This document shows positions 2,307-57,169 of a stretch of 64,000 bases of DNA, piece by piece; position 1 is the first letter of the stretch; each line of letters opens with the position of its first letter. The DNA lies in IMG/VR virus record IMGVR_UViG_3300035698_011757, positions 1 to 64,000 of that record. One strand, given 5' to 3'. The notes beneath the pieces were generated by a model. The model was not told the DNA's origin and did no database searches. It saw only the letters and a program-made list of their open reading frames with translations. The DNA comes from a virus. The position numbers were made by a program, and so were the translations under genes.

Positions 2307-2335
2307 TTGACATTTCTCTTAAAATATTGTACAAC
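2307..2335 (+). promoter_or_regulatory. Candidate promoter for recQ
   Basis: TTGACA at 2307-2312 is followed after 17 nt by TACAAC (2330-2335). Transcription would begin near 2342, at the ATG at 2343, giving a leaderless mRNA. No Shine-Dalgarno motif is present. Confidence 0.45.
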
Positions 2336-2342
2336 CAACTAC

Positions 2343-3842
2343 ATGAGTGAAATGAAAAAGATTTTAAAAGACTCGTTCGGGTATGATTCCTTTCGAACAG
2401 GTCAAGAAGCTATTATAAAAAGAATAGCAACAGGCAAAGATGGATTGGTCATTATGGCGACTGGTGCTGGAAAGTCTATAACATTCCAAGTTCCAGCTCT
2501 AATGTATGACGGATTAACTATTGTGGTTTCTCCCCTCGTATCGTTGATTAAAGATCAAGTCGACACACTTATTAAAAAAGGAATTCCAGCGGCTGGTCTT
2601 TCGTCCCAAATGACGCCAAAACAAGTTAATGAGGTAATTGACGGCATTAGAGAGGAAAAGTATAAGCTTTTGTATATCGCTCCAGAAAGATTATCAAATC
2701 AAAACTTCTTAGATCTAATCAAAACAGTAAAGGTTTCATTTATCGCCGTGGATGAAGCTCACTGCTTGAGTCAGTGGGGTCACGACTTCAGACCAGACTA
2801 CAGGAAGATCGGCTCATTACGACAGTTGGTTGGGAACCCACAATGCGTAGGTTTTACAGCGACAGCTACAGCTAAAGTTCGAGACGATATTAAAAAAAGC
2901 TTGCACATGACAAACCCTTTCGCTATTATTAAAGGGTTCAAAAGAGATAATCTAAGTATGAATGTGAACAAGTGTGCCGCAGCAAACAAGGTTGACAGAA
3001 TTTACGACATCGTAAAAGCACACAAAACAGGAATCATTTACTGCGCCACTGTTAAGCATGTCACCAAAGTAGCTATGGAGCTTAGGGACGAGTTTGGAGT
3101 AGACTGTATTGAGTATCACGCCCAATTAACAAAGAAACAGCGTGAGGAGGCTCAGAATGGCTTTATGGACGGTTCTATAGATGTTGTTGTAGCTACGAAC
3201 GCATTTGGTATGGGAATTGACAGATCTGATCTAAGATTTGTAGTTCATTACTCTATCTGTGGAAGTATCGAGGCACTAAGTCAAGAATGGGGAAGAGCGG
3301 GACGAGACGGAAAAGAATCTCACTGCGAATTACTCTTAAACGGTGCGGACATATCTACTCAAAACTTCTTTATCAGAGGGTCTAATCCATCTTATGAACT
3401 AATTCAACAAGTCTACGACCACCTACGACTTAAAGCTGGTGCGGAAAATAGAACTATCACAGCTACTATAAAGGAGCTTTGCGCTGAAATAGGAGCCAAA
3501 AGTGATATGCAAGTCTCCACAGCTATCTCAATCCTTTATAAGGAGGGTTATGTAAATAGAATCCAAAACGGAAGGAACAAACATACCGAGATAATCAATA
3601 GGGATGTCGAATTTATTGACAGAATCAAGAAAAAGACAATTCGAGATAAGTTAAAAGCTGACATGGAAAGACTCAAAAAACTAGAGGATTATACATACAA
3701 CTCAGAGACTTGTCGCCAAGAAGGTTTTATGCACCACTTCGGGCAGATAAAAAAATACGAGTGCGGAAAATGCGATAATTGCAAAACAAAAGCCTCAAGA
3801 AGAAAATTCACCTCCAAAACTGGAGAACAACCACCATTTTAA
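2343..3842 (+). CDS. recQ: RecQ-family ATP-dependent DNA helicase
   Basis: This 499-residue protein has the superfamily 2 order of RecQ: FRTGQEAI (motif 0), Walker A ATGAGKS, DEAH followed by CLSQWGHDFRPDY (the aromatic-rich RecQ loop), TATAT (motif III), and GMGIDRSD...QEWGRAGRDG (motifs V and VI). The C-terminus carries the RecQ zinc site with Cys residues in CRQEGF and CGKCDNC. There is no HRDC domain. The family unwinds DNA 3'-5' in recombination and fork repair. Start ATG 2343 is chosen over the upstream TTG (2307) because that TTG is part of the promoter -35 box and the first 12 residues would add nothing conserved. The gene follows the methyltransferase directly. Confidence 0.93.
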   Translation: MSEMKKILKDSFGYDSFRTGQEAIIKRIATGKDGLVIMATGAGKSITFQVPALMYDGLTIVVSPLVSLIKDQVDTLIKKGIPAAGLSSQMTPKQVNEVIDGIREEKYKLLYIAPERLSNQNFLDLIKTVKVSFIAVDEAHCLSQWGHDFRPDYRKIGSLRQLVGNPQCVGFTATATAKVRDDIKKSLHMTNPFAIIKGFKRDNLSMNVNKCAAANKVDRIYDIVKAHKTGIIYCATVKHVTKVAMELRDEFGVDCIEYHAQLTKKQREEAQNGFMDGSIDVVVATNAFGMGIDRSDLRFVVHYSICGSIEALSQEWGRAGRDGKESHCELLLNGADISTQNFFIRGSNPSYELIQQVYDHLRLKAGAENRTITATIKELCAEIGAKSDMQVSTAISILYKEGYVNRIQNGRNKHTEIINRDVEFIDRIKKKTIRDKLKADMERLKKLEDYTYNSETCRQEGFMHHFGQIKKYECGKCDNCKTKASRRKFTSKTGEQPPF

Positions 3843-5554: not shown

Positions 5555-5751
5555 ATGAGGAAGAAAACAAAAAAATCCAAAGAATGTGCTGAATACTCCT
5601 TAAAAAACAAAGCGAAAAAGTTCGACCCAACAAAAGAAGATCTTTGCAAAAAATACTGGAAGATAAGATTACATTTACAACTCTTGGCAAGTTTTACGGG
5701 GCAAGCGACAACGCTGTGAGGAAAAGATGTAAGAAATTTAAAATAATTTAA
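5555..5751 (+). pseudogene. Frameshifted small HTH protein
   Basis: The frame starting at ATG 5555 reads up to ...DLCKKYWKIR; the natural continuation, DKITFTTLGKFYGASDNAV, is in the next frame and ends at TAA 5751. The joined product would be a roughly 65-residue Lys-rich HTH protein like the DNA-binding ends of HNH endonucleases. A single frameshift separates the two parts, so it is probably a remnant. Confidence 0.5.
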
Positions 5752-5754
5752 AAA

Positions 5755-5841
5755 GCATGCGTGGTGAAATTGGCATACACTAGATGTCTAAACCCTCTCA
5801 GTCTTCGGACTGCGCAGGCTCGAATCCTGCCGCATGCACCA
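5755..5841 (+). tRNA. tRNA-Leu (anticodon TAA)
   Basis: This is a class II tRNA: acceptor GCATGCG/CGCATGC, D-arm GTG/CAC, extra arm CAGTC-TTCG-GACTG, T-arm GCAGG-CTCGAAT-CCTGC, discriminator A and encoded CCA. The anticodon arm AGATG-TCTAAAC-CCTCT has one mismatch and C instead of U at position 33. The other arms are perfect, so the call is firm but function may be impaired. Confidence 0.75.
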
Positions 5842-5901
5842 ATAATCAGATACGAGATAAGGACGTCCTCGATGAAAATCGAGTTAGCTGGTTTGATTAT
5901 T
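5841..5901 (+). other. Structured spacer element between two tRNAs
   Basis: Eight-base inverted repeat AATAATCA (5841-5848) / TGATTATT (5894-5901) encloses a second perfect hairpin CTCGAT-GAAA-ATCGAG and the palindrome GGACGTCC. It does not fold as a tRNA. It could be a processing signal, a tRNA remnant or a small structured RNA. Confidence 0.4.
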
Positions 5902-5905
5902 AAAA

Positions 5906-5992
5906 GTTAACGTAGCTAAGTGGACGACAGCACTGGTTTTGTAATCCAGTAGGGAAACCTCACCGTGAGTTCGAATCTCACCGTTAACTCCA
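5906..5992 (+). tRNA. tRNA-Thr (anticodon TGT) with long variable region
   Basis: Acceptor GTTAACG/CGTTAAC, T-arm GTGAG-TTCGAAT-CTCAC, discriminator T and encoded CCA. The anticodon loop TTTGTAA gives TGT, and the loop plus discriminator match bacterial tRNA-Thr. Unusually, about 15 nt lie between the anticodon stem and T stem, including a small AGG-GAAA-CCT hairpin, and the D stem has only three pairs, both class II traits not expected for Thr. Confidence 0.7.
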
Positions 5993-5994
5993 TA

Positions 5995-6096
5995 ATGAAA
6001 GAGCGAATATTAAAATTAAGAAAACGAGGATTTACATACAATCAAATATGCGACACTTTAAACAAAGGCAATGGAAGGCATTCGAGAATGGATAGA
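5995..6096 (+). CDS. 33-residue HTH-like fragment
   Basis: The short frame right after tRNA-Thr reads KERILKLRKRGFTYNQICDTL, resembling the N-terminal HTH of the HNH protein at 4875. The remainder is out of frame or missing. It is most likely the start of a lost endonuclease gene. Confidence 0.3.
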
Positions 6097-6123
6097 TACA
6101 AAAACGGCAAAAGCTATTAAAAC

Positions 6124-6288
6124 ATGTCTAGATCACACAAAAACAAATACAGCAAAAAACATTACTGCTGTCGGTGGTATGAATTATTACAAGCACACAA
6201 AGAAGGTCTTTATGTCAAATACGCTTTAAACGTAGCGTTTATTAGAACACCAAACCCACTTGACAATCATGCCGTATATAAAAGATAA
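6124..6288 (+). CDS. Hypothetical 54-residue basic protein
   Basis: A short basic protein (SRSHKNKYSKKHYCCRWYELL at the start). Its end overlaps the start of the next gene by 20 nt, as real gene pairs in this genome do. No family recognised. Confidence 0.4.
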   Translation: MSRSHKNKYSKKHYCCRWYELLQAHKEGLYVKYALNVAFIRTPNPLDNHAVYKR

Positions 6289-6580
6289 CACATGGAGAAA
6301 AGAATCTTTAGTCTACAGAAGAGTAAAGGGTCATAGCTGGGGAGATGCTTTTAAAATAGAGTATCCAGTCTTTCCGATACATAACGATCAATTAGAATGG
6401 GAGATATACAAATGCGACATTTTTAGAGAGCAGGAAGAACTTGGATGGAATAATGTAGATTCCGCAAGGGCTTTAATTGACTGGGACGATTTACATTATG
6501 TTTACCAAGAAAAAATAGGTAGGCATTACGGAAAACTTCAACCTAAATTTGAAAAAAGTTTAAAAAACATGTTAAAGTGA
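6269..6580 (+). CDS. Hypothetical protein, 103 residues
   Basis: ATG 6269 is chosen over the TTG at 6260. The product is aromatic-rich (SWGDAFKIEYPVFP, WDDLHYVYQEKIGRHYG) without recognised motifs, signal peptide or membrane segment. It overlaps the preceding small gene and is followed by a strong hairpin (6590-6613). Composition is like a soluble folded protein. Confidence 0.5.
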   Translation: MPYIKDNTWRKESLVYRRVKGHSWGDAFKIEYPVFPIHNDQLEWEIYKCDIFREQEELGWNNVDSARALIDWDDLHYVYQEKIGRHYGKLQPKFEKSLKNMLK

Positions 6581-6589
6581 CAACAACAT

Positions 6590-6613
6590 AAGGAGAGGCT
6601 AACGCTTCTCCTT
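6590..6613 (+). terminator. Strong hairpin after the hypothetical gene
   Basis: AAGGAGAGGC-TAAC-GCTTCTCCTT forms a 10-bp stem (one G-T). No T-run follows, so it may be an mRNA 3'-end stabiliser rather than a terminator. Confidence 0.4.
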
Positions 6614-6620
6614 AACAAAA

Positions 6621-6695
6621 ACTAGGCGCTGAGTAACGGCTGATCGCTTGCTTTGGAAGCAAGATATATTGTAGGTTCGATTCTTTTATGGTGTA
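6621..6695 (+). tRNA. Degenerate tRNA-Pro-like sequence (anticodon TGG)
   Basis: The anticodon arm CTTGC-TTTGGAA-GCAAG is perfect and a T-loop-like GGTTCGATTC follows at proper distance, but neither acceptor nor T stem pairs. It is likely a decaying tRNA. Confidence 0.35.
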
Positions 6696-6712
6696 TCTCA
6701 ATGCGTTCGTCG

Positions 6713-6778
6713 TCCAACAGGATGGGACTGATGGCTTCTAACCATCCAATCGGGGTTCGAGTCCCTGCGGACGCACCA
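6713..6778 (+). tRNA. tRNA-Arg (anticodon TCT)
   Basis: Acceptor GCGTTCG/CGGACGC, D-arm GTCC/GGAC, anticodon arm GATGG-CTTCTAA-CCATC, T-arm CGGGG-TTCGAGT-CCCTG, discriminator A and encoded CCA. The last A of CCA is also the first base of the ATG of the following HNH remnant. Confidence 0.92.
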
Positions 6779-7213
6779 TGAAAAATACGAAACACTCAAT
6801 GTGGTATTTTAAAATAATAAAAAACAGGAAGAGTAACCCTTACGAAGGTTACGCGGAATCTCATCACATAAATCCCAAATCCCTAGGAGGGATAGACGAT
6901 AAAGACAACTTAGTGAGCTTGTCAGATAGAGAGCATTATGATGTCGAATTGTCAATCAGAAAGTCAAAATAGGTATTTCTGATTAAGCAGAACTTATGAA
7001 AAGCGAAGATCTGAACACTATGAGATGATGAGAAGCTCGCAGTCTGGTAATAAAAATAGTCAATTTGGAAAAATCTGGATTTACAACGAACAATCAAAAA
7101 GAAATATAAAAAAATTCTGTAGCTACAAGTGTTGCAGAGAAAATAATTACCACAAAAACCCAAGTTTCGCAACCTCAGATCCAAAAAAAGTTAAAATAAA
7201 ACTTGACTTTTAG
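6778..7213 (+). pseudogene. Broken HNH endonuclease gene
   Basis: The first part (6778-6972) reads ESHHINPKSLGG...DNLVSLSDREHY, a canonical HNH core; the second part (about 7025-7213, shifted frame) reads GNKNSQFGKIWIYNEQ, the NUMOD3-like tail of the same endonuclease type. A frameshift near 6960-7020 separates them. The insertion point is the exact 3' end of tRNA-Arg. Confidence 0.65.
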
Positions 7214-7230
7214 TGAGTTTTAGGTATAAT
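7203..7230 (+). promoter_or_regulatory. Promoter upstream of tRNA-Glu/tmRNA cluster
   Basis: TTGACT (7203-7208), 16-nt spacer, perfect TATAAT (7225-7230). It is likely to drive the tRNA-Glu, tRNA-Gly and tmRNA unit. Confidence 0.65.
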
Positions 7231-7344
7231 ACAAACAAGAACATGGAGATAGTCCATTAAGCAATTGTTTTTCATCTGTTTTACAATTCATTGATCGCTC
7301 TGATATATAGCGAAAGACCTTACAACTATCAATATATCAAAAAC

Positions 7345-7420
7345 GTTCCCTTGGTCTATGCGGTTAGGACGGAAGACTTTCAATCTTCAAAAGCGAGTTC
7401 GAATCTCGCAGGGAATGCCA
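7345..7420 (+). tRNA. tRNA-Glu (anticodon TTC)
   Basis: Acceptor GTTCCCT/AGGGAAT, D-arm GTCT/GGAC (one mismatch-like G-T), anticodon arm GAAGA-CTTTCAA-TCTTC, T-arm GCGAG-TTCGAAT-CTCGC, discriminator G and encoded CCA. Confidence 0.93.
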
Positions 7421-7478
7421 AAGGCACACACAGCAATTTTTACTTTTATTATCAAAGAAACAAAACGTGCCTTGTTAT

Positions 7479-7554
7479 GTCGGTGTAGCTCAATTGGTAG
7501 AGTAGTTCCCTTCCAAGGAAAATGTTGCAGGTTCGATCCCTGTCACCGATACCA
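7479..7554 (+). tRNA. tRNA-Gly (anticodon TCC)
   Basis: Acceptor GTCGGTG/CACCGAT (first pair G-T), D-arm GCTC/GAGT, anticodon arm GTTCC-CTTCCAA-GGAAA, T-arm GCAGG-TTCGATC-CCTGT, discriminator A and encoded CCA. Confidence 0.9.
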
Positions 7555-7612
7555 GACTCAGATCATGTAGCCAGTTCGCTGGTTAAACTCTCCACTATTC
7601 ATGATCTGAGTC
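7555..7612 (+). repeat. Perfect 13-bp inverted repeat with inner hairpin
   Basis: GACTCAGATCATG (7555-7567) and CATGATCTGAGTC (7600-7612) are exact reverse complements; CCAG-TTCG-CTGG lies inside. The element starts immediately after the CCA of tRNA-Gly. No T-run follows. It may be a processing stem or the relic of a tRNA. Confidence 0.6.
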
Positions 7613-7621
7613 TACCATCAT

Positions 7622-7695
7622 CGAAAGATCGGCTAATGTAAGCCATGCCTCTCTGGAGAGGTAAAACGCAGAATCAAATCCTGCTCGTTCGACCA
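7622..7695 (+). tRNA. tRNA-like gene, damaged
   Basis: Acceptor CGAAAGA/TCGTTCG (6 of 7 pairs), D-arm GGC/GCC, anticodon stem GCCTC/GAGGT with only a 6-nt loop (TCTGGA), T-arm GCAGA-ATCAAAT-CCTGC with lost closing pair, discriminator A and CCA. The anticodon is ambiguous (CTG or TGG). Probably a decaying tRNA. Confidence 0.5.
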
Positions 7696-7718
7696 AGATC
7701 TGGAATTCAGATCGATAT

Positions 7719-8073
7719 GGGCTAGTGTAGATTCGACTTTAAGTCGCTCTTTACCCTGCTTCAACCTAAGATAGTCACTGACTTGCTGATAAGATCAAAA
7801 CAATTGACGAAAAACAAGTCGCATTAGCAGCCTAACCGCTGCACTCAACAATTAGCCGTAGAGACTAATGTTGGGATCAATGCAAATCTCTACTGACGAA
7901 TAGGAAATAGACTATAGTATCTAGCATTCAAGATACATAAAAAAAGAATGTTGGTTTCAGACGCCACTCACTGAATAGATTGGTAGTTACGAAGAAACTA
8001 CCTAAATGGTTGTAAAAAAGCGAGATAAGAAAACTTAAAGGACAGAGAGTGCGACCCTCTCTCTAGTCCACCA
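7719..8073 (+). ncRNA. ssrA: tmRNA (transfer-messenger RNA)
   Basis: The 5' end GGGCTAG pairs with CTAGTCC, followed by A and CCA (8063-8073), making a tRNA-like acceptor. The T-arm is AGAGAG-TGCGACC-CTCTCT; near the 5' end GATTCGAC matches the conserved tmRNA D-loop sequence. An internal tag frame reads ADKIKTIDEKQV-ALAA then TAA, ending like bacterial tags, with the stop codon inside a GCAGC/GCTGC hairpin exactly as in E. coli ssrA. Further hairpins (CAAC.ATTAG/CTAATGTTG, GGTAGTT/AACTACC) are candidates for pseudoknot stems. Length, 355 nt, is normal. It would free stalled ribosomes and tag unfinished proteins for proteolysis. The exact resume codon (GCT near 7800) is inferred. No SmpB gene is seen in the window. 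Confidence 0.9.
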
Positions 8074-8131
8074 ATTTCACATCGTAATTGATTTTGTGTA
8101 AGCATATATACACAATTAAGTAATAAACATT

Positions 8132-8389
8132 ATGCCAGATCAAAAAAAACCAGTAGCCAAAAAAGCTGCGAAGAAAAACGAAGAAGCGAAGCCTGTTGTT
8201 GAAGAAGCAAATCCAGCTCCAAAAAAAGAAGAGCCAAAAAAAGAAGAGCCAAAAAAAGAAGAGCCAAAATCAGAACTAGAATCTCTATGTGATTTCTACT
8301 TAGATAAGGTTCGCTCATCAACTCAAGCAAAAGCAGTAGCTATCGAAGCTCTCGTAAAAGTATTGGAACTAGTTAAGAAAAACAAGTAA
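8132..8389 (+). CDS. Lys/Glu/Pro-rich 85-residue protein
   Basis: Residues 1-48 are a low-complexity Lys-Ala-Glu-Pro region with three exact KKEEP repeats; residues 49-85 (ESLCDFYLDKVRSSTQAKAV...) look like a small helical domain. It ends at a strong terminator. The N-terminus resembles that of the protein at 33840. Its role is unknown; a structural or nucleic-acid-binding protein is possible. No Shine-Dalgarno motif. Confidence 0.6.
   Translation: MPDQKKPVAKKAAKKNEEAKPVVEEANPAPKKEEPKKEEPKKEEPKSELESLCDFYLDKVRSSTQAKAVAIEALVKVLELVKKNK
8219..8263 (+). repeat. Three tandem 15-bp repeats
   Basis: CCAAAAAAAGAAGAG occurs three times without change (8219, 8234, 8249), coding KKEEP units; copy number may vary between relatives. 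Confidence 0.9.
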
Positions 8390-8410
8390 TTCAATAAAAT
8401 ATATTTTTAA

Positions 8411-8442
8411 AAACCCACTAGTAATTAAACTAGTGGGTTTTT
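8411..8442 (+). terminator. Rho-independent terminator
   Basis: AAACCCACTAG / CTAGTGGGTTT is a perfect 11-bp stem with loop TAATTAAA and a following T-run. Confidence 0.88.
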
Positions 8443-8457
8443 AGTGTAAATACGTGT

Positions 8458-8817
8458 ATGGCTATTGTAAAATTCGACATACATGCGACTAAAGGCTCTA
8501 CTTTAAACGCTATCCAATTTAAGTTTGTTCAAACCAAAGAGCCAGAGGTTCTTCTGGATTTAACGGGGTGGTCTGTATATGCGGAAGTGAGAAAGAAGTC
8601 TGGAGACGTTGTTTTAATGGATCTTGAACCAACAATTACAGACGCGCCAAATGGACAAGTAACTATCCAAAAAACAGACGAGCAGATGCTCGAATTAGAC
8701 GCCGCAGTTTATAGATGGGACTTAATCCTAGAAGATGAAACTGGGCAAGCATTTCCTCCTTATATTGGGGGAAAATTCACTGTTTCAAAAAAAATAACAA
8801 ACAGCAACAGTGCCTAA
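8458..8817 (+). CDS. BppU-like N-terminal domain virion protein
   Basis: A 119-residue beta-rich protein with DLTGWSVYAEVRKKSG, DAPNGQVTI and YRWDLILEDETGQ, the pattern of the small Ig-like domain seen at the start of baseplate upper proteins and other phage tail proteins. It is likely a virion or tail-associated component. It overlaps the next gene (GTG 8810) by 8 nt, so both are probably co-translated. It could equally be a head or neck accessory protein. Confidence 0.6.
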   Translation: MAIVKFDIHATKGSTLNAIQFKFVQTKEPEVLLDLTGWSVYAEVRKKSGDVVLMDLEPTITDAPNGQVTIQKTDEQMLELDAAVYRWDLILEDETGQAFPPYIGGKFTVSKKITNSNSA

Positions 8818-9058
8818 TCAATCGTTCAACCCATGTGTGGTTGAGATAACTGTAAGCGACGCAATAGTTGACGTTAAGCTTATAGAGGTATCTAGCCAAA
8901 CTCCTAATATAGAGGTAATAGAAACAACAAGCTCGTTGCCAAGCATTGAGATTGTTGAAATTTCTGGCTTAATGCCGAACATAGCGGTTATTGAAACCTC
9001 CACACAGGCAGACCAGTCTATTGAGCTTATTGAGGTCGGGAATATAGCAGGAGAATGA
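8810..9058 (+). CDS. Repetitive beta-strand protein
   Basis: 82 residues starting at GTG 8810 inside the end of the preceding gene. The sequence consists of imperfect repeats of about 13-15 residues alternating hydrophobic and polar positions (NIEVIETTSSLPSIEIVEIS, NIAVIETST), suggesting stacked beta strands. No known family is recognised; the context suggests a structural protein. Confidence 0.5.
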   Translation: MPNQSFNPCVVEITVSDAIVDVKLIEVSSQTPNIEVIETTSSLPSIEIVEISGLMPNIAVIETSTQADQSIELIEVGNIAGE

Positions 9059-9211
9059 AACTTCAAGCTAAACAGGTCGAGGTTTATGAAAAACAGATTA
9101 AAGCAATATAAGAAATCAATCATTACTTCGTGAGATAAATATTCTCAAAAGAAAAAAGCAGACAAAAAGGACATTATCCCTCCATTTATCTAAAATTTAT
9201 TAAAAAACTTC

Positions 9212-9239
9212 TTGACAAAATGTATTTTGTGTGTATTAT
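9212..9239 (+). promoter_or_regulatory. Promoter for tRNA-Ile
   Basis: TTGACA (9212-9217), 16-nt spacer, TATTAT (9234-9239), 15 nt before the tRNA start. Confidence 0.65.
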
Positions 9240-9254
9240 AACATACAAGAAAAT

Positions 9255-9329
9255 GGTTCTGTAGCTCAAAGGAAGAGCAATCGCTCGATAAGCGATGTGT
9301 TGGGATTTCGAAATTCCCCAGAACTACCA
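9255..9329 (+). tRNA. tRNA-Ile (anticodon GAT)
   Basis: Acceptor GGTTCTG/CAGAACT, D-arm GCTC-AAAGGAA-GAGC, anticodon stem ATCGC/GCGAT with loop TCGATAA (GAT, but C at position 33), T-arm GGGAT-TTCGAAA-TTCCC with one mismatch, discriminator A and encoded CCA. Confidence 0.8.
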
Positions 9330-9369
9330 TAGTTCGTTCCCAGTGGGAGATGAATGAATAAAGGCTTAC

Positions 9370-9397
9370 TCGTAGAGCCAGCATAGCAAATCTACGA
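9370..9397 (+). repeat. Inverted repeat between tRNAs
   Basis: TCGTAGA (9370-9376) and TCTACGA (9391-9397) are exact complements with a 14-nt loop; an alternative hairpin GGCT/AGCC overlaps it. Confidence 0.4.
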
Positions 9398-9401
9398 TAA
9401 T

Positions 9402-9474
9402 TGCCCCATGATGTAGTGGTAGCATCCTGTTTTACATGCAGTGTGTCTGAGTTCGATTCTCAGTGGAGCTACCA
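9402..9474 (+). tRNA. tRNA-Val (anticodon TAC)
   Basis: D-arm GATG-TAGTGGTAG-CATC, anticodon arm CTGT-TTTACAT-GCAG, T-arm CTGAG-TTCGATT-CTCAG, discriminator A and CCA. The acceptor TGCCCCA/TGGAGCT pairs in only 5 of 7 positions. Confidence 0.7.
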
Positions 9475-9750
9475 ATGAAATGTGTTTATATAAAAACTGT
9501 AGAAGTGTCTTCAAAAAGGATTAGTGGAGGAACTGTGAAAACATCCAAGTATGCCGCGTTACTCATAAACGATTCTTTAAAAAACACAACAACGACCTTC
9601 TACATCGAAAGCTACTTTTACAAAAGGGGCGAGCTAAAATGTAAAAAAAATGAATTAACAATAAATCTCTCACCAAATGAACAAAAAATAATATTTGGAG
9701 AAGAAATGAACATTCTTGATTTTGGTGGCAAAATAAAATGTGTCCCATGA
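9475..9750 (+). CDS. Hypothetical protein, 91 residues
   Basis: ATG 9475 follows the CCA of tRNA-Val immediately. The sequence (KTSKYAALLINDSLKNTTTTFYIESYFYKRGELKC) looks like a small beta-rich soluble domain. It is not recognised. A location glued to a tRNA end is typical for mobile or accessory genes in this region, but no endonuclease motif is present. Confidence 0.45.
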   Translation: MKCVYIKTVEVSSKRISGGTVKTSKYAALLINDSLKNTTTTFYIESYFYKRGELKCKKNELTINLSPNEQKIIFGEEMNILDFGGKIKCVP

Positions 9751-11162: not shown

Positions 11163-13277
11163 ATGGGCAAGATTTTTATCACTGGCGTAACAGGTATGGA
11201 CGGATCATACTTGGCGGATTATTTACTAGAGTTGGGGCATGAAGTTTATGGTGGCATTAGGCGGCTATCGTCACCGAATACCCAGAATATCAAACAAGCC
11301 GTTAATCACAAAAACTTTCATAGTGTCGCGTTTGACCTTTCTGACACTCATTCAATCAACAAAGCGGTAGAAGAAATCCAACCAGACTTTTTTATTAATT
11401 TAGCCGCACAATCGTTTGTGGGGTCTAGTTGGGACATTCCAGAGCAGACGTTCGATATTAACGCTACAGGTGTCCTACGATGCCTTGAGGCGATCAGAAA
11501 GCACGCTCCTAAGTGCAGGTTCTACAACGCAGGGTCAAGCGAGGAAGTTGGAGACGTAGATTATTCCCCTCAAGACGAAAAACACCCATTAAAACCAAGA
11601 TCACCATATGGCGCGTCAAAAGCGGCAGCTAGACACTTAGTGAAGGTTTATAGAGAAAGTTATGGTCTATTTGCAATTCAAGGAATGTTGTATAATCACG
11701 AATGTTTCGACTCAAACACGCCAATAATCTTAAAAAACAAGTCGGGATCAATAACGATAGATTACATTAGAAACCTATGCCCAGAAAGATCAGATATAAC
11801 GAAGGACAATTCAGTGCTTACGAAAGACTTATCTTCAGAAAATCTTGACATTTGGGACGGAAGCGATTTTGTAAAATTAAAATTAATAACCAGAAGAAAA
11901 AGTAAAACAGTAAAAAATTACGAAAAAAAATCCTTAATCTCAAGACATGGAGAGTGCGTTGCGACTAACGGTCACAACTTCATACTAGAGGATGGATCTA
12001 AACGAAAGTGTGAAAAAATAAAGGAAAAGGACAGATTGAAACACGGAAAATTTCCAGAAACAAAAGAAACGATCAGTATAACAAATGAACTAGCAAAAGT
12101 GATGGGATTCATTTGTAGAGATGGTAGCATATCAAAAATGGGTAATAAATTCAATTTAGTGAATGCAGATGAGAGCATTTTAAAGGACTTTGAAGAGTCC
12201 TGCCTCAAATCATTTCCTAATGCTAAATTTAAAAGATCTAAAAATCCCTCTAGATTTAAACTTGGAAACTTTAGTCACAAAACTACAGTGAGCGGGGTAA
12301 ACTCTGGAACCGTTAATTATTTAAGAGAATCTTTATATGAAAAGAAAACAAGTCACAAAAAAATCCCAGATGAAATATTAAACTCCACAAAAGAAAAAAT
12401 GCTAACATTCTTCGATTCTTACTATAGATGTGGTGGACTCAAAAAAACAAAAGCAAAATACAAATATTCAAGCTTCAAAACTAGCTCCCCAATACTAGCA
12501 CAAGGTTTATTGTTTTTAATTAGCAAAATATCAGATCAAGATTTTTGTATAAATAGATACTACCACAACGACAAACTATATTACCAAATAAATTTAACAT
12601 CAACAACTAAAGATAAAAAAGGAGATCATCTCAAAAAAAACAATAACGAAGTTAAGAAAATCATCAACATTAAAAACGGGGATGGCTGCTTCGTATATGA
12701 CGTAGAGACTGAGACTGGAGTGTTGAATGCTGGGGTTGGAACAATGGTCGTGGGAAATTCGCCAAGAAGAGGCATTGAGTTTGTGACTCAGAAGATAGTT
12801 TCTTCGGCAAGAAGAATAAAAAACGACTTAGATTTAGCGTATTCACCACCAATATTATACTTGGGAAACATTTACGCAAAGAGGGATTGGAGTCATTCTA
12901 AAGATTTTGTAAGAGGAATCTGGGCAATGGTTAGTCAGCATAAGCCAGAAGAATATATTCTTGCTTCTGGAAAAACCCACACAGTTAAAGAGTTTGTAGA
13001 GGCGACATTTAAAGAGTTTAATATAAATTTAACATGGAAAGGAGATGGTTTGGATGAAGTGGGTTACTTAAGAGATGATAATCACCACGAAGGTGAATTT
13101 AAACATTGGTGTAGAGCGACAACAATCCCATTGATTAAGATTTCTGAAGAGTTTTATAGACCAGCGGAAGTGGATTTATTACACGGAGACGCAACGCTAG
13201 CGAGAGAGAATTTAGGATGGATTCCAGAGTATTCATTTACTGATTTAATTAAAGATATGGTTAAAGGTGATAAATAA
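11163..13277 (+). CDS. gmd: GDP-mannose 4,6-dehydratase with intein
   Basis: The 704-residue frame contains a 352-residue SDR enzyme interrupted by a 352-residue intein. N-extein: Rossmann GVTGMDGSYL, AAQSFVGSSW, GSSEEVG, and catalytic SPYGASKAA (Tyr149, Lys153). After the intein comes SPRRGIEFVT, which with the preceding NHE makes the GMD signature NHESPRRG, and then LGNIYAKRDW and YRPAEVDLLHGD. It converts GDP-mannose to GDP-4-keto-6-deoxymannose, the precursor of fucose-type sugars, possibly for modifying host surface glycans or phage DNA/virions. Glycosyltransferases occur at 30347-33853. Own promoter upstream. Confidence 0.93.
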   Translation: MGKIFITGVTGMDGSYLADYLLELGHEVYGGIRRLSSPNTQNIKQAVNHKNFHSVAFDLSDTHSINKAVEEIQPDFFINLAAQSFVGSSWDIPEQTFDINATGVLRCLEAIRKHAPKCRFYNAGSSEEVGDVDYSPQDEKHPLKPRSPYGASKAAARHLVKVYRESYGLFAIQGMLYNHECFDSNTPIILKNKSGSITIDYIRNLCPERSDITKDNSVLTKDLSSENLDIWDGSDFVKLKLITRRKSKTVKNYEKKSLISRHGECVATNGHNFILEDGSKRKCEKIKEKDRLKHGKFPETKETISITNELAKVMGFICRDGSISKMGNKFNLVNADESILKDFEESCLKSFPNAKFKRSKNPSRFKLGNFSHKTTVSGVNSGTVNYLRESLYEKKTSHKKIPDEILNSTKEKMLTFFDSYYRCGGLKKTKAKYKYSSFKTSSPILAQGLLFLISKISDQDFCINRYYHNDKLYYQINLTSTTKDKKGDHLKKNNNEVKKIINIKNGDGCFVYDVETETGVLNAGVGTMVVGNSPRRGIEFVTQKIVSSARRIKNDLDLAYSPPILYLGNIYAKRDWSHSKDFVRGIWAMVSQHKPEEYILASGKTHTVKEFVEATFKEFNINLTWKGDGLDEVGYLRDDNHHEGEFKHWCRATTIPLIKISEEFYRPAEVDLLHGDATLARENLGWIPEYSFTDLIKDMVKGDK
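11703..12758 (+). other. Intein in GDP-mannose 4,6-dehydratase
   Basis: Starts with Cys (CFDSNTPIIL, block A), has a block B-like ATNGHNF, LAGLIDADG-like MGFICRDGS and a degenerate second motif (SYYRCGG), and block F VYDVETETGVLNAG. It ends Val-Val-Gly-Asn before Ser. The penultimate residue is Gly rather than His, a known but uncommon variant. The second endonuclease motif lacks its Asp. Confidence 0.88.
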
Positions 13278-15804: not shown

Positions 15805-18336
15805 ATGTTGTATAACTACGATATTGAAAAACAAGTCCTAGCAGGACTACTAAGATACCCAGACGACGTATTTGAAAAAATACAAGATTACGTTAAGCCA
15901 GAGCATTTTTATGAAGAAAGTAGTGTTAATAAAACTCTATTCTTTATTATCACGGCTAGACTAGAAAAGCAGGAGAGTTTAGATCCATTCATCATTACGC
16001 AAAAAGTAACTGAGTCTGGCATTACGTTCGAAGAGCATTTGGACGTTTATGACTATCTAAAAAACTTAAATTTCAGAAAAGTTTCCGTCGAGGCGGCGGT
16101 AGACTCAGCCAAGGAGTTGATTTCGCTCTATTTCAAGAGGAGAATGTGCAAAACTGCGGACGATCTAAAAAGAACAATCAAGCAAAAGAGTTTTAGTTCA
16201 TTCCAATCCATGATTGATGAGTGTGACCAAATTTATAACGACAGCGTCAACGTATTTGATGGTGGAGATAGGGATGAAGTTGCAAACATCTACGATGATC
16301 TTGAAGACGTTATTGAAGGTTTGGGTGAAGAAGGGTTAAATGATCCAGTAGGACCTCATAAAAAGCTCTATAGCATCTATGGTAGTCAAGTTAAGGCTGG
16401 CAACATCACAATCATCTCAGCGCGCGCGGGGTGTGGAAAAATGATGCCTCATTACAGTAAAATCAAAACAAGGATAGGATGGACTAATCATGGGGATATT
16501 AAAATTGGTGATGAAGTGTCCTGTCCAGATGGCACGTTTTCTTTGGTTGATGGCGTGTTTAAAAAGGGAGTTCAAGATGTTTACAGAATTACATTTACAG
16601 ATGGAAGAGTAGCGGACTGTGGCTTGGATCACTTATGGAAGGTAAGATCCAGAAATCCTCATAAGAAAAAAACCTCTTACGAAGTGAAAGACACGACTCA
16701 AATGATTGAAGAATTAAAAACCCTCAGTCTATATGTCCCCTTAACGGAAGCTCAAAATAATAAGGATAAATCCGTAAGCGTAGACCCTTATGTTTTAGGA
16801 ATCCTACTTGGTTATGGGTGCTTGAAAAAATCAAATTACTTAAAGATAACTACGAACGATGATGAAATTTACAATAAAATCAGCAATACTTATTCCTGCG
16901 GAAAGAAAGTTTTAGACAAAAGAACGAAAAATACATACTCATTCTCTATTTTAGACAAGAATGTAAAAAAAGCTATCGAAGAATTGGGTCTTTTAAACAC
17001 GTCAAGCTCTACTAAGTTTATTCCAAGCGAATATAAGGAAGGTCTATCGAAAAGTCAAAAACTAAACTTAATTAAAGGTTTAATGGATTCATATGGACAC
17101 GTATCACTTAGCTTGGAATATTCAACATTTAGCAAAAAACTATCTGATGATTTCAGAGAGTTAGTGTGGAGTATTGGAGCTGTATGCAAACAAAGAATAA
17201 AAGAAACATCGTATAAAACAAAAGAAGGCGAAAAAGTAAAATGCGAACAAACTTATATTCACGCAATTAGATATTCATCCCCAAAAGACTTGTTCTCCTT
17301 GATTAGAAAAAAGAACAAATGTCCAGAAAATTATCAATATTCAGACTTGGATTTGAAGATTGAAAAAATCGAATTCCTATCAAGAGAAGAGTGTTCTTGC
17401 ATATCCATCAATCATGAGGATCACTTGTATTTATGCGATGATTATGTAGTAACACACAACACAACATACGCCTTAGATTACTCAACAGCGATAACTGATG
17501 AGACTGCATGCCCAGTGATTCACTTCGATAATGGAGAGATGAGCAAGAAGGAACTTCAAATTCGCCAAATGGCGGCTTTGAGCGGAGTTTCTACATTTAA
17601 TATTGAGAGTGGCAGGTGGAGAAATTGTGAGATATTAACCAAGAAAATTAGAGATGTTTACAAAAAAATTAAGAATTTTAAGTTCTTCTACATAAATGTT
17701 GGTGGTAAATCCTCAACAGAAATGATGAGTATATTTAAGAGAACTTATTATTCAAAAGTTGGACGCGGAAATTATTGTGTGTTCTCTTTTGATTATATTA
17801 AAACATCGTCTGAGAAGCTAGGTAATAAACAAGAACACCAAATCGTAGGAGATATGCTTGATGGATTCAAAACTTTAATCCAAAGAACAATCCAAGACGA
17901 AGAAAAAGAGCCTTGCGTGGCAATGATAACTTCAGTTCAAAGTAATAGATCTGGAATCGTTGGGAGCCAAAGGGGTTCTCATGAGATTATGGATGACGAG
18001 GGAAGTATTTCTTTGTCAGATAGAATTATTCAAATTGCCTCGCACGTCTATATCCTAAGAAAGAAGACGATAGAAGAAATGGCGCGAGACACTGAGAAGT
18101 TTGGGACTCATTACCTCATTAACCTAAAAGCTCGTCACATGGGCGAAGATAAAGAGCTGGATTACATCACAGTTAAGGTTGAAGGAGCCAGACATAGAAA
18201 TAAAATCTGCCTTGAACTTAAAAACTTTGTTGTAGTGGAGAAGGGCGATTTAAACGATGTCGCAGAACACCTAGAAACAATGAATGATGTCATCGAAAAC
18301 GAAAGAACCACAGACCCTTCAATCGCAGGATTATAA
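15805..18336 (+). CDS. dnaB: Replicative DNA helicase DnaB with class 3 intein
   Basis: Extein residues 1-150 match the DnaB N-terminal domain (DIEKQVLAGLL, HFYEESSVNKTLF); the RecA-like ATPase starts near 195 with Walker A ARAGCGK, interrupted by an intein, then resumes with TTYALDYSTAI, FDNGEMSKKELQIRQMAAL (motif 1a/2), FSFDYIKTSS (Walker B), SVQSNRSG and SDRIIQIASHVYIL (motifs 3/4). The spliced product would have about 503 residues, normal for DnaB. It unwinds the replication fork. It overlaps the primase gene by 53 nt. Confidence 0.92.
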   Translation: MLYNYDIEKQVLAGLLRYPDDVFEKIQDYVKPEHFYEESSVNKTLFFIITARLEKQESLDPFIITQKVTESGITFEEHLDVYDYLKNLNFRKVSVEAAVDSAKELISLYFKRRMCKTADDLKRTIKQKSFSSFQSMIDECDQIYNDSVNVFDGGDRDEVANIYDDLEDVIEGLGEEGLNDPVGPHKKLYSIYGSQVKAGNITIISARAGCGKMMPHYSKIKTRIGWTNHGDIKIGDEVSCPDGTFSLVDGVFKKGVQDVYRITFTDGRVADCGLDHLWKVRSRNPHKKKTSYEVKDTTQMIEELKTLSLYVPLTEAQNNKDKSVSVDPYVLGILLGYGCLKKSNYLKITTNDDEIYNKISNTYSCGKKVLDKRTKNTYSFSILDKNVKKAIEELGLLNTSSSTKFIPSEYKEGLSKSQKLNLIKGLMDSYGHVSLSLEYSTFSKKLSDDFRELVWSIGAVCKQRIKETSYKTKEGEKVKCEQTYIHAIRYSSPKDLFSLIRKKNKCPENYQYSDLDLKIEKIEFLSREECSCISINHEDHLYLCDDYVVTHNTTYALDYSTAITDETACPVIHFDNGEMSKKELQIRQMAALSGVSTFNIESGRWRNCEILTKKIRDVYKKIKNFKFFYINVGGKSSTEMMSIFKRTYYSKVGRGNYCVFSFDYIKTSSEKLGNKQEHQIVGDMLDGFKTLIQRTIQDEEKEPCVAMITSVQSNRSGIVGSQRGSHEIMDDEGSISLSDRIIQIASHVYILRKKTIEEMARDTEKFGTHYLINLKARHMGEDKELDYITVKVEGARHRNKICLELKNFVVVEKGDLNDVAEHLETMNDVIENERTTDPSIAGL
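16441..17460 (+). other. Class 3 intein in the DnaB P-loop
   Basis: 340 residues placed between GCGK and T of Walker A. It begins with Met, not Cys/Ser/Thr. It has DHLW in block B, a Cys in block F (ECSCISINHEDHLYL) and ends THN before Thr. Trp-Cys-Thr is the hallmark of class 3 inteins, which start splicing with the block F Cys. The LAGLIDADG motifs (LLGYGCL, MDSYGHV) have lost their Asp, so homing activity is likely gone. Confidence 0.85.
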
Positions 18337-22091: not shown

Positions 22092-23873
22092 ATGACAACA
22101 TTCATGAATGATTGTGAGGGATACATAGAACCATACCCAGTTGGAGTTCTACTTCCTAGCATTAAAATAACCGAAAAGGACAAAGCTCAGAATGAAGTTT
22201 CTGGAGAAATGACCAATGCCGAGTTTCTGCGAGCTGTTTGCAGAAAAAAGTTTAAAGATTTAAAAATCGACCAAAAACCAAACTCAAAAGATTACGCTGA
22301 CAGAATTAAAATGGAACTAGGCATCTTTGAAGAGCTTGACTTCGTAGACTATATTTTGCTTAACTGGGATATTATTGGAAAATCAAAAGAAAAAGGCATT
22401 CCAATTGGTGCTGGTCGTGGTTCAGCCGCAGGTTCGTTGGTTCTTTATCTTCTAGGGGTCACAGCTATTGACAGCCTCAAGCACGAACTGTTCTTCGAAA
22501 GATTCGTGTCAAGATCGAGAGCGCGAAAGATCGAGCATAATGGCGTCACATATCTAGATGGAGGCTTATTGCCCGATGTTGATAATGATATTGCTTACGA
22601 CAGACGACAAGAGGTTATTGATTATGTTGAAACCGAATATGCTGGACGAACAGCAAAAATATTAACAATCAACACATTAACAGGAAAACTTTGCATTAAA
22701 GAGTGTGGAAAGATTGTTGCAGAACTATCAGAGGAAGATGTAAACGAAATTAGTTCGTCTATTCCAAAAAATGGTGGATCAGTGTTTCCACTAGCAGAAG
22801 CTTACGAGGAAAGCCTTAAATTTCAAGGATTTATGGATGACCACCCAGAAGTGTTTAGAATCGCAAAAACACTAGAAGGGCTAAAAAAGAACTTCGGTGT
22901 TCACCCAAGCGGAATCGCTATTTCAAGACAAGATATTAAAGAGGTAATGCCTTTGCAGTTGACAGGAGATTGTGAGATCGTCACAGGTTACGACATGAGA
23001 GCTGTGGCGGAGCTTGTTGTTAAGTTTGATGTTCTAGGTCTAAGAACCCTATCTGTCGTTTACGACACGTTAAAACAAGTAGGATTGAAGCTAGAAAACA
23101 TAGATGTAAACGACGAATGTATCTATAGACATTTGCAAACACTAAAAGATCCACAAGGATTATTTCAGATTGAAGCTGACACAAACTTTAGGGTTTGTCA
23201 GTTGGTAAGACCTATGAATTTAGAGCATTTAAGTGCCATTTTAGCACTAGCGAGGCCCGGGGCCTTGGATTATGTGGAAGACTTCGTAAAGTATAGGGAT
23301 ACAGGGGAATCTCAACTCAAGCACGAAATCTTTAAGGACGTTTTAGACTACACTGGAGGCACTGCGCTTTACCAAGAACAGTTGATGAAAATGGCAAACA
23401 ATATCGGCTTTTCGTTAGACGAATCAGAAATGCTTCGAAGAGTAACGGCTAAGAAAAAACCAGAAGAGGTTAAAAAGTGGAAAGGTTTAATTAAAGACAA
23501 AGTAAAAGAAAACAACCTAGACGAAGAAGTGGGAGATATTCTATGGAAAGTCGCGGAAGATTCTGCAAATTATAGCTTTAATAAATGCTTGGCTTTAGAT
23601 ACTATAGTAGAAACGGAGCATGATTTTAAAATGATGTATGAAATATCTAAAGGTGATTTCATAAAAGCTTACGACGTAGATGGCGACAAAAATATCCTTG
23701 TTGAAGTTTTAGATATAATTAACGGACAGAAAGAGCTTTTTGAATTCGAAATGTTCGACGGAAACACAGTAACATGCTCAATGGATCATAAATTTTTATG
23801 CAGTCACGATAAAAAAATGCACCCAATTAGAAATATTATAGAGAATGATTGGGAAATAGTGTGTAATAGTTAG
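22092..23873 (+). CDS. DNA polymerase III alpha, N-terminal part fused to N-intein
   Basis: Residues 1-498 are the palm/thumb/fingers of a C-family polymerase: GAGRGSAAGS at about 106-115 and LLPDVDND (Asp162, Asp164) near 160, then FGVHPSGIA, FDVLGLRTL, PQGLFQIE, LARPGALDYVEDFVKYRD and YQEQLMKMANNIGF...LRRVTAKKK. The extein ends in SYSFNK, then 95 residues of N-intein end at TAG 23871. The remaining polymerase is at 24906-25976. Both halves must be joined by protein trans-splicing for a whole enzyme. A free-standing homing endonuclease lies between. Confidence 0.92.
   Translation: MTTFMNDCEGYIEPYPVGVLLPSIKITEKDKAQNEVSGEMTNAEFLRAVCRKKFKDLKIDQKPNSKDYADRIKMELGIFEELDFVDYILLNWDIIGKSKEKGIPIGAGRGSAAGSLVLYLLGVTAIDSLKHELFFERFVSRSRARKIEHNGVTYLDGGLLPDVDNDIAYDRRQEVIDYVETEYAGRTAKILTINTLTGKLCIKECGKIVAELSEEDVNEISSSIPKNGGSVFPLAEAYEESLKFQGFMDDHPEVFRIAKTLEGLKKNFGVHPSGIAISRQDIKEVMPLQLTGDCEIVTGYDMRAVAELVVKFDVLGLRTLSVVYDTLKQVGLKLENIDVNDECIYRHLQTLKDPQGLFQIEADTNFRVCQLVRPMNLEHLSAILALARPGALDYVEDFVKYRDTGESQLKHEIFKDVLDYTGGTALYQEQLMKMANNIGFSLDESEMLRRVTAKKKPEEVKKWKGLIKDKVKENNLDEEVGDILWKVAEDSANYSFNKCLALDTIVETEHDFKMMYEISKGDFIKAYDVDGDKNILVEVLDIINGQKELFEFEMFDGNTVTCSMDHKFLCSHDKKMHPIRNIIENDWEIVCNS
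23586..23870 (+). other. N-half of split intein (polymerase III alpha)
   Basis: 95 residues starting with Cys (CLALDTIVE, block A), with CSMDHKFL as block B (the Cys-Ser-Met-Asp-His form of TxxH-like), and ending in a stop codon after about the length usual for N-halves of split inteins (around 100). Confidence 0.9.
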
Positions 23874-23874
23874 T

Positions 23875-24828
23875 ATGCTATCTATTAAAATACAAGATTT
23901 TAAAAAAATCATTCCAACAAGCATGTTCGAAAATTGCCTACTAGACAATGTTTCAAAAAAAGATATAATAAATAAATTTCCAACTAGAGATGGAGGAGCT
24001 TATTATTTAGATAAATTCGAGAACCATTTAATTGAAAATCACAACATAGATTTAAAAAAATACATAAAAGAATTCTTAAATGAGGACTACCCAAAATGCC
24101 CAGTCACAAATAAAGACGTTGGCTTTGTCAAAAATGGAAAGGGGGTAGTTTTTTCAACTAGAGCTAGAGGGTCCGTGACCAAAGATAGTTGCGAAAACTT
24201 TAAAATAGCTTGCGAAAAATTATCTAAAGAAAGAATGGGGGATAAAAATCCAATGTTCGGAAGAATACCTTGGAATAAAGGGAGTGAAGAATGGGCTAAA
24301 GAAGTGTCTAAAAGATTCAAAGGGAAGCCGCTCTCAGAAGATCATAAAAAAAAGCTATCTGAATCTGCAAAAGTTAGGGAGGTTCACGGAAACACTGGAA
24401 ACAAACATTCTGAGGAATCAAAACAAAAAATGAGAATAGCCACAGCGAAGAGGTTAAAAAAGGGAGATTTCAACAAAACTTCAAAAATACAAATAAAAGT
24501 GAGAGAGTTTTTGCAAACCCTAGACCTAAAAGAGCCTTTTGAAGAAGAGTTTCATTTAAAATATTATTCTCTTGACTTTGGTTTTAAAACAGCTAAACTA
24601 GCTATTGAAGTTCAAGGTCAGTATTTTAATATAGATCCTAGATTTTACCCAAACGGAGCAGAAGACGCTATTCAAAGAAGGAACTCTGGAAGAGATAAAG
24701 CTAAAAGATCTTTTTTGAAAAATAAAGGATGGCACATGGAGGAAGTGTGGGAAAAAGAAATAAATGAAAACAAATTCAAACAACAAATACTATGTATTCT
24801 ACAAAAATTAAATATTTTAAATCAATAG
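23875..24828 (+). CDS. Free-standing Vsr-like homing endonuclease with NUMOD3 repeats
   Basis: 317 residues. Middle: NUMOD3-like repeats GDKNPMFGRIPWNKG, FKGKPLSEDHKKKLSES, GNKHSEESKQKM (about 120-190) that bind DNA. C-terminal (about 200-300): Vsr-type nuclease fold with YYSLDFGFKTAKLAIEVQGQ and RDKAKRSFLKNKGWHMEEVW. The start codon follows the N-intein stop by one base and the end overlaps the C-intein ORF by 37 nt. This is the arrangement described for fractured genes, where such an endonuclease sits between split-intein halves. Confidence 0.88.
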   Translation: MLSIKIQDFKKIIPTSMFENCLLDNVSKKDIINKFPTRDGGAYYLDKFENHLIENHNIDLKKYIKEFLNEDYPKCPVTNKDVGFVKNGKGVVFSTRARGSVTKDSCENFKIACEKLSKERMGDKNPMFGRIPWNKGSEEWAKEVSKRFKGKPLSEDHKKKLSESAKVREVHGNTGNKHSEESKQKMRIATAKRLKKGDFNKTSKIQIKVREFLQTLDLKEPFEEEFHLKYYSLDFGFKTAKLAIEVQGQYFNIDPRFYPNGAEDAIQRRNSGRDKAKRSFLKNKGWHMEEVWEKEINENKFKQQILCILQKLNILNQ

Positions 24829-24905
24829 GGACAAAACCTACGATAGATTTCGAAGTAAATCACAAAGATCATAACTTTTACGCACATGGGTTAGTTACAT
24901 CAAAC
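24792..24905 (+). other. C-half of split intein (polymerase III alpha)
   Basis: 38 residues with block F (IDFEVNHKDHNFYAHG) and block G LVTSN before Ser. The terminal Asn is present; the penultimate residue is Ser instead of His. Confidence 0.9.
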
Positions 24906-48072: not shown

Positions 48073-48268
48073 ATTTATAGCAAAAAAGGACTTCTCTCTC
48101 GAAGCGATAGAAATTAAAGATCCTTTTACCTTGACAAAAGGTGAAACTCTTACTAGAATATCCAAGATGACAGAGACGTCCTTCTTTCAAATCGGAGACA
48201 AAACGTTCTGGTTAGAAAATGCTGAATTCGAAACAATAGAAAAAAACTTAAAAATAATTACAAAATGA
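48065..48268 (+). CDS. Hypothetical protein, 67 residues
   Basis: ATG 48065 overlaps the clpP stop by 8 nt, the common overlap here. The sequence (KKDFSLEAIEIKDPFTLTKGETLTRISKM) predicts a small beta domain like an SH3-like fold. Ends overlapping NAMPT by 4 nt (ATGA). Function unknown. Confidence 0.6.
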   Translation: MDKFIAKKDFSLEAIEIKDPFTLTKGETLTRISKMTETSFFQIGDKTFWLENAEFETIEKNLKIITK

Positions 48269-57102: not shown

Positions 57103-57169
57103 AAAATGCTGGGACATTACTGTTCAAAAAAATAGTAATTTTTATGCGAATGGAGTTTTAGTTCACAAT
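57068..57169 (+). other. C-half of split intein (RNA ligase 2)
   Basis: 34 residues with block F CWDITVQKNSNFYANG and block G VLVHN, followed by Ser. His and Asn are canonical. Confidence 0.88.

Follow-up and report, generated by a model that had tools for sequence, protein, structure and literature searches.

A probable one-piece tmRNA gene with a six-base-pair T-stem in a phage genome that also encodes ClpP and a ClpA/ClpC-like unfoldase

The stretch of DNA analysed here (the window) comprises bases 1-64,000 of a 65,480-base IMG/VR virus record, IMGVR_UViG_3300035698_011757, and has a GC content of 36%. Its phage genes include a relative of tail tip protein J, a DnaE-type polymerase, a UvsX-like recombinase and a DnaB-type helicase. 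The region from 5.7 to 9.5 kb is a tRNA cluster, as identified using ARAGORN and Rfam. Within it, flanked by a tRNA-Gly gene and a small lysine-rich ORF, lies a candidate tmRNA gene that is overlapped by no ORF of at least 80 aa. The genes considered below are as follows.

7345-7420, plus strand: tRNA-Glu(ttc), upstream of the tmRNA and in the same orientation
7479-7554, plus strand: tRNA-Gly(tcc), upstream of the tmRNA and in the same orientation
7622-7692, plus strand: weak tRNA-like gene upstream of the tmRNA (Rfam 33.7 bits, no ARAGORN call)
7719-8073, plus strand: candidate one-piece tmRNA gene, 355 nt with encoded CCA, identified by anatomy, descriptor, fold and class membership
25983-28553, plus strand: ClpA/ClpC-like double AAA+ unfoldase, 856 aa, with two Walker A/B sets and pore loops KYRG and GYVG
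47491-48072, plus strand: ClpP of the housekeeping type, 193 aa (PF00574, 209 bits; S97, H122 and D171 conserved)
62808-63998, plus strand: CCA-adding tRNA nucleotidyltransferase, its reading frame continuing beyond the window end

The weak gene at 7622-7692, whose anticodon loop is enlarged and whose T-loop (ATCAAAT) is altered, is possibly a divergent or decayed tRNA; a second weak tRNA match at 5755-5838 (Rfam 35.7 bits) was also missed by ARAGORN. RNA ligase parts are encoded on the record as well and, together with the CCA-adding enzyme, fit an effort by the phage to keep the translation machinery in repair. The DNA polymerase III alpha gene (22092-25976) is apparently split: the first ORF ends with an intein-like N-part, an ORF at 23875-24828 amid the polymerase parts has NUMOD3 motifs of the kind found in homing endonucleases, and the third ORF holds an intein-like C-part followed by the remaining polymerase. 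The arrangement resembles a split intein accompanied by a free-standing homing endonuclease, the polymerase and NUMOD3 being assigned from domain matches and the split intein by eye. A DNA methyltransferase, a GDP-mannose dehydratase, the DnaB-type helicase and two RNA ligases (3-2303, 11163-13277, 15805-18336, 53858-55435 and 57068-58477) also look intein-interrupted, from Pfam intein or LAGLIDADG matches for the RNA ligases and by eye from split domain matches for the others.

Protein, pattern, blastn and tblastn searches found no close relatives of the phage or of its tmRNA. The helicase at 2307-3842 and the protein at 11163-13277, used as queries, had no relatives among viral contigs, and an exact 5′-end pattern gave 0 matches. 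Matches from blastn of 5700-9500 against phages were limited to tRNAs and short stretches, and tblastn of the window ORFs against the collected loci (L002-L174) gave scattered single-gene matches at most. As no close relative was found, there is no covariation for the middle part of the tmRNA. The RNA has the following parts.

7719-7725, plus strand: acceptor 5′ strand GGGCTAG, pairing with 8063-8069
7726-7737, plus strand: D-loop region TGTAGATTCGAC, a 3-nt linker, AG (the A equivalent to position 18) and ATTCGAC
7737-7747, plus strand: helix 2, 5′ strand (7737-7743 with 8034-8040; 7744-7747 with 8020-8023)
7785-7835, plus strand: tag reading frame ADKIKTIDEKQVALAA, GCT to GCC at 7785-7832, with stop codon TAA at 7833-7835
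7827-7842, plus strand: H5-type hairpin GCAGC (7827-7831)/GCTGC (7838-7842), 5/5 paired, containing the stop codon
7846-7893, plus strand: pseudoknot PK2, S1 7846-7850 and 7852-7855 with 7865-7873 (A7851 bulged), S2 7858-7864 with 7887-7893
7917-7950, plus strand: pseudoknot PK3, S1 7917-7922 with 7931-7936, S2 7925-7929 with 7946-7950
7956-8002, plus strand: two hairpins at the PK4 position, 7956-7960 with 7971-7975 and 7982-7988 with 7996-8002
8034-8040, plus strand: helix 2, outer part, 3′ strand
8044-8062, plus strand: T-arm, 6-bp stem AGAGAG/CTCTCT (8044-8049/8057-8062) with loop TGCGACC
8063-8073, plus strand: acceptor 3′ strand CTAGTCC (8063-8069) and ACCA (8070-8073)

An earlier note on this DNA, made from the sequence alone, had proposed a phage-encoded tmRNA with a tag ending in ALAA, and the anatomy and the alanine identity of the acceptor support that proposal. 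The coordinates given there for the acceptor GGGCTAG/CTAGTCC with ACCA, spanning 355 nt, were confirmed with 7/7 pairs. The third pair is G-U, corresponding to G3-U70, the alanine identity pair, so the alanine-tRNA check suggested there gave a positive answer. The T-arm and D-loop that it had described are indeed present, at 8044-8062 and 7730-7737, respectively. The D-loop, GATTCGAC at 7730-7737, is of the reduced kind, with TTCGAC and no D-stem; the loop reads AGATTCGAC, with AG rather than the usual GG before ATTCGAC. The T-arm differs from that of standard tmRNA, for which a 5-bp stem and a 7-nt TTCRANY-type loop are expected, in having 6 bp and TGCGACC. With a T-stem of 6 bp, the acceptor/T stack amounts to 13 bp instead of the usual 12. 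Helix 2 (7+4 bp, 11/11 paired) connects the tRNA-like domain to the remainder of the molecule.

The resume codon would be GCT at 7785, with A at position -4 as in the one-piece relatives introduced below; this position matters in E. coli. The tag ADKIKTIDEKQVALAA has 16 residues and ends in ALAA, a ClpXP/ClpAP-type C-terminus, and its stop codon lies in the GCAGC/GCTGC hairpin as had been claimed (TAA 7833-7835 within 7827-7842). The commonest tag length reported in PMC11915505 is 10. Two pseudoknots follow, of which the inner coordinates of S1 in PK2 were placed by eye. PK1 could not be recognised 5′ of the tag. The longest helix upstream has 4 bp, with a small hairpin possible at 7773-7776/7780-7783, and since no longer helix occurs there, PK1 appears to be missing or reduced. 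Tagging has been described as needing PK1, though a small stable hairpin can substitute, and contact between the D- and T-loops as required for SmpB binding (PMC3968760).

These features were compared with chance expectation. Searching both window strands with a descriptor of the tRNA-like domain (TTCGAC D-loop, 7-bp acceptor, CCA, 5- or 6-bp T-stem and 7-nt TNCRANY loop) gave one match, and 300 Markov sequences of 64 kb, each searched on a single strand, gave none. Shuffling the sequence 3′ of the tag 2000 times produced at least two non-overlapping H-type pseudoknots in 13 cases, and a helix 2 of at least 7 bp was seen in 100 of 5000 shuffles. The fold z-score was -2.5, with 0/100 shuffles folding as stably as the tmRNA.

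Standard tools did not report the gene. ARAGORN found six tRNAs and no tmRNA in the window, and Rfam at gathering thresholds found eight tRNAs and no tmRNA. Relaxing Rfam to E values up to 10 over 641 bases produced a single tmRNA-type match, to tmRNA_permuted, which scored 14.6 bits where the cut-off is 47; RF00023 alone, also at E up to 10, gave 0 matches to the tmRNA. A tmRNA covariance hit and an ARAGORN call had been set beforehand as one of two tests of the proposal, and neither was obtained. The visible reasons are the 6-bp T-stem, the T-loop TGCGACC, the D-loop AGATTCGAC and the lack of a recognisable PK1. We read the missing Rfam hit as divergence rather than refutation, because Rfam does recognise relatives that share this unusual T-arm.

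Those relatives were identified by scanning viral contigs with the pattern GGAC-6-TGCRANY-10-TCCACCA. The scan returned 55 viral stretches, 52 of which had 6/6 T-stem pairs, in both one-piece and permuted gene orders; with the window included there were 56 matches and 53, respectively, 3 having been dropped because their T-stems had under 5 pairs. Of the 52, 34 (19 one-piece, 15 permuted) passed a filter that also asked for a 7/7 acceptor and a TTCGAC D-loop, or 35 with the window (20 one-piece); in 18/53 the filter found no D-loop with matching acceptor. The window shares the 6-bp T-stem, the TGCRANY loop, the AGNTTCGAC D-loop and the 7-bp acceptor of this long-T-arm class. The 20 one-piece genes, window included, represent 15 different sequences; tags of the relatives, with starts assigned by eye, include AEDNVVSYDFSYDDVVALAA and ANFNDSAYALAA, and end in ALAA, AIAA, AVAA or AVA. 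The extra pair, outermost in the T-stem, was compared across 14 unique tRNA-like domains: 10 have GC, 3 have AT and 1 has TA, so that the pair is compensated. G3-U70 occurs in 14/14, T at position 70 being fixed by the search pattern and G3 left free.

ARAGORN reported a tmRNA at 1/52 of the viral long-T-arm loci (L230) and missed 51/52, as it did the window; its call in L228 was located elsewhere and is excluded from this count. By contrast, RF00023 recognised 11/11 one-piece loci tested (64-112 bits) and RF04321 recognised 13/13 permuted loci tested (73-120 bits), these 24 being drawn from the 34 filtered loci. As Rfam recognises all 24, the long-T-arm class is real tmRNA, of which the window is the most divergent member among those examined. 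The 6-bp T-stem therefore marks a variant and is no ground for exclusion from tmRNA, as 34 relatives share it and Rfam recognises every one tested. For three members searched with their flanks, blastn against 50,697 phage records gave no match. Adjoining one long-T-arm tmRNA, on the minus strand of L216 (3670-3745), is a match to the CyVA-1 sRNA family at 43.6 bits, barely above the cut-off.

The elbow of the window tmRNA is also unusual, with A and G (AG...TGC) in place of the usual GG...TTC. We take these two positions to correspond to tRNA 18 and 55, which touch in the tRNA elbow, so that the two change together. In 125 viral loci ARAGORN found 102 tmRNAs, 54 one-piece and 48 permuted. The 54 one-piece genes without exception combine G before GATTCGAC with a TTC T-loop, and the permuted ones comprise 23 A/TGC, 11 G/TTC, 3 G/TGC, 2 A/TTC and 2 G/TAC, with the T-loop unread by the pattern in 7. 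A scan for one-piece A/TGC genes gave 7 viral and 41 bacterial stretches, with a 7/7 acceptor and paired T-stem in 7/7 and 27/41, respectively, so that this elbow type in itself is no novelty among one-piece genes. The idea that an AG/TGC elbow in a one-piece gene might mark the reversal of a permuted gene was rejected, the combination being ordinary in those 27/41 bacterial stretches. The T-stem was of 5 bp in 7/7 viral and 25/27 bacterial cases. In the other two, one-piece tmRNAs of Bacillota MAGs (L143 and L166), the T-stem has 6 bp (GGGGGG/CCCCCC) and the tag is ANDNYALAA; ARAGORN detects L143. A virus-only 6-bp T-stem was accordingly rejected (2/27 bacterial one-piece AG/TGC genes). In 398 Pseudomonadota genomes, 239 of them with a match, no 34-base (6-bp) match was present among the matches listed. 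In a limited search of the open-access literature, no account of a tmRNA with a 6-bp T-stem was found.

The ClpP of the window scores 225.8 bits with PRK00277 (housekeeping) against 78.9 for head-maturation proteases. When it is aligned with ClpPs of three other phages, Ser97, His122 and Asp171 do not vary. With scores under the NCBIfam curated cut-offs (249 and 308.6), it is a divergent ClpP; PHROGs label families related to it as head maturation. The gene adjoins nucleotide-metabolism genes, and a NADAR-domain protein, a Nudix hydrolase and a nicotinamide phosphoribosyltransferase clustered nearby (45407-45937, 46883-47497 and 48265-49710) form a possible NAD/ADP-ribose module. The unfoldase carries the loop GIGMIKN (IGM) at the ClpP-docking (IGF/IGL) position of ClpA/ClpC. 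It was assigned as ClpA/ClpC-like, and not to ClpA or ClpC alone, because its ClpA (635 bits) and ClpB (624) model scores are both below curated cut-offs; the closest solved relative is ClpC. SmpB is absent from the 65-kb record.

Similar combinations occur elsewhere. Record G034 (328 kb), whose long-T-arm tmRNA is permuted, encodes ClpP (261 bits) and ClpA (850 bits) and no SmpB, and a 90-kb record with the same tmRNA type (G467) encodes both at 264.5 and 868.5 bits. A third long-T-arm record (G460) has ClpP, and a fourth (G033) has neither. The huge phage record LR756504 carries a tmRNA (65 bits), ClpP, a ClpC-like protein and SmpB. Across the long-T-arm records, many of which are fragments, ClpP was found in 2/50 and full-length ClpA in 1/50, and a general tmRNA-Clp association was rejected. 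When strong ClpP and full ClpA were sought in 40 other viral records (32 of metagenomic origin, ARAGORN confirming 29/32, with L121, L125 and six one-piece AG/TGC records), only G034 had both. Among 44 viral records of 50 kb or longer that had been selected for ClpP regardless of tmRNA, 8 contained a tmRNA 3′ end, ARAGORN confirming 8/8; these were 6/8 of the records of at least 200 kb and 2/36 of those below. The difference may be a genome-size effect, the set consisting of ClpP-bearing records. Large phages thus carry tmRNA together with Clp genes recurrently but not invariably.

The reading we prefer, at a probability of roughly 0.85, is that 7719-8073 is a genuine one-piece phage tmRNA with a divergent tRNA-like build, charged and delivered by the host and tagging stalled products. 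The RNA anatomy, the class of relatives and the Clp genes can be read directly from the sequence; from them we infer that the RNA is expressed, charged, used with SmpB and active in tagging. During infection, messages would be cut and ribosomes would stall. Host AlaRS would charge the phage tmRNA with alanine through G3-U70, and host SmpB and EF-Tu would deliver the alanyl-tmRNA into the stalled ribosome. Translation would resume at GCT 7785, ADKIKTIDEKQVALAA would be appended to the unfinished protein, and the ribosome would be freed. A tag ending in ALAA would send such proteins to ClpP led by ClpA or ClpX; the earlier remark that ALAA-type tags target proteins to ClpAP/ClpXP fits a phage with ClpA-like and ClpP genes of its own. 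Because both are encoded, the phage may run the degradation branch itself, and the pair could add or replace capacity when host proteolysis fails or saturates. We suggest degradation by the phage's own Clp pair tentatively, as a possibility that falls somewhat short of an even chance.

Several points count against this reading: no tool hit, no PK1, a 16-residue tag, no close relative, no SmpB, and the scarcity of Clp genes in the class. The missing SmpB and the unrecognisable PK1 would suit a decoy, in which the tRNA-like domain binds SmpB, AlaRS or the ribosome and blocks host tmRNA instead of carrying out full tagging. Mycobacteriophage DS6A has an RNA consisting of the tRNA-like domain only, and a similar molecule has been reported to inhibit tmRNA (PMC4131195, PMC11915505). 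However, an open tag frame with a normal ALAA end, a stop-codon hairpin and pseudoknots are parts that a decoy would not need, and the relatives also retain tag frames; we consider a decoy quite improbable.

The failure to find PK1 could equally belong to a decaying, non-functional copy of a host or phage tmRNA, as could the position of this RNA as the most divergent one-piece tmRNA examined, with 0 RF00023 matches against 86-115 bits in 7/7 viral one-piece AG/TGC relatives. Decay would break pairs rather than replace them, yet the stems are intact and the changes compensated (acceptor 7/7, T-stem 6/6, helix 2 11/11, H5 5/5, PK2 and PK3), and the encoded CCA and open tag frame are retained, leaving this explanation very improbable. 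That two standard tools give no tmRNA match might even suggest a chance resemblance, for which the likelihood is negligible: the descriptor was not found in 300 random 64-kb samples, and Rfam recognises independent viral RNAs whose T-arm has the same odd build. Starting from a genuine phage tmRNA, one may go further and propose a separate phage tmRNA architecture (13-bp stack, AG-TGC elbow, both gene orders, largely unseen by ARAGORN surveys), paired in some large phages with ClpA and ClpP as a virus-controlled tagging-proteolysis branch. Delivery may then follow modified rules, because a 13-bp stack sets tRNA-Sec apart from EF-Tu substrates. This wider proposal is speculative and, as a whole, rather unlikely.

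The rarity of phage tmRNAs that the earlier note had asserted holds as a frequency, ARAGORN having found them in 402 of 18,146 phage genomes (PMC9004378), but they are a kind already known, in mycobacteriophages and Bacillus phage G (PMC4131195) and in huge phages with tmRNA and SmpB (PMC7162821). It is the long-T-arm build that appears to have been largely overlooked. A curated set of 97,179 sequences, for which the main search was by ARAGORN and BLASTN, holds 79 unique phage sequences (PMC11915505). Since ARAGORN missed the build in 51/52 viral cases, phage counts based on it are lower bounds, and phage tmRNAs are structurally more varied than those 79 sequences suggest. With the extra base pair, the strictness with which EF-Tu and SmpB gauge the acceptor/T stack can be tested directly, and the co-presence of tmRNA, ClpA and ClpP makes testable why phages carry a ribosome-rescue RNA. 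The 6-bp T-stem and 13-bp stack, the AG...TGC elbow, helix 2, the two pseudoknots, the absence of PK1, the invisibility to the tools and the Clp genes had not been part of the earlier note.

Compared with known systems, the window RNA shares with standard one-piece tmRNA (ssrA; RF00023) the gene order, the 7-bp acceptor with G3-U70, the TTCGAC D-loop, helix 2, the tag, H5, pseudoknots and CCA. It differs in having a 6-bp rather than 5-bp T-stem, TGCGACC rather than TTC, AG rather than GG, no PK1 seen and no RF00023 score. Permuted two-piece tmRNAs (RF04321, RF01849, RF01850) have AG...TGC as their commonest elbow (23/48), as in the window, and many viral ones also have its 6-bp T-stem; in the window, however, the 5′ half precedes the 3′ half, with the pseudoknots between. 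Bacterial and viral one-piece AG/TGC tmRNAs have the same gene order and elbow, with a T-stem mostly of 5 bp. Published phage tmRNAs (mycobacteriophages such as Bxz1, Bacillus phage G, Melnitz and huge phages) are likewise complete on the phage genome, and the phage tmRNA records examined here mostly lack SmpB. The published ones were found by ARAGORN, BLASTN or Rfam (PMC9004378, PMC7162821, PMC11915505), whereas the long-T-arm build escapes ARAGORN in 51/52 cases. The jumbo Sinorhizobium phage AP-J-162 is reported to combine a tmRNA and several Clp ORFs on one genome, its ClpX being linked there to replication and not to the tmRNA tag (PMC11242549).
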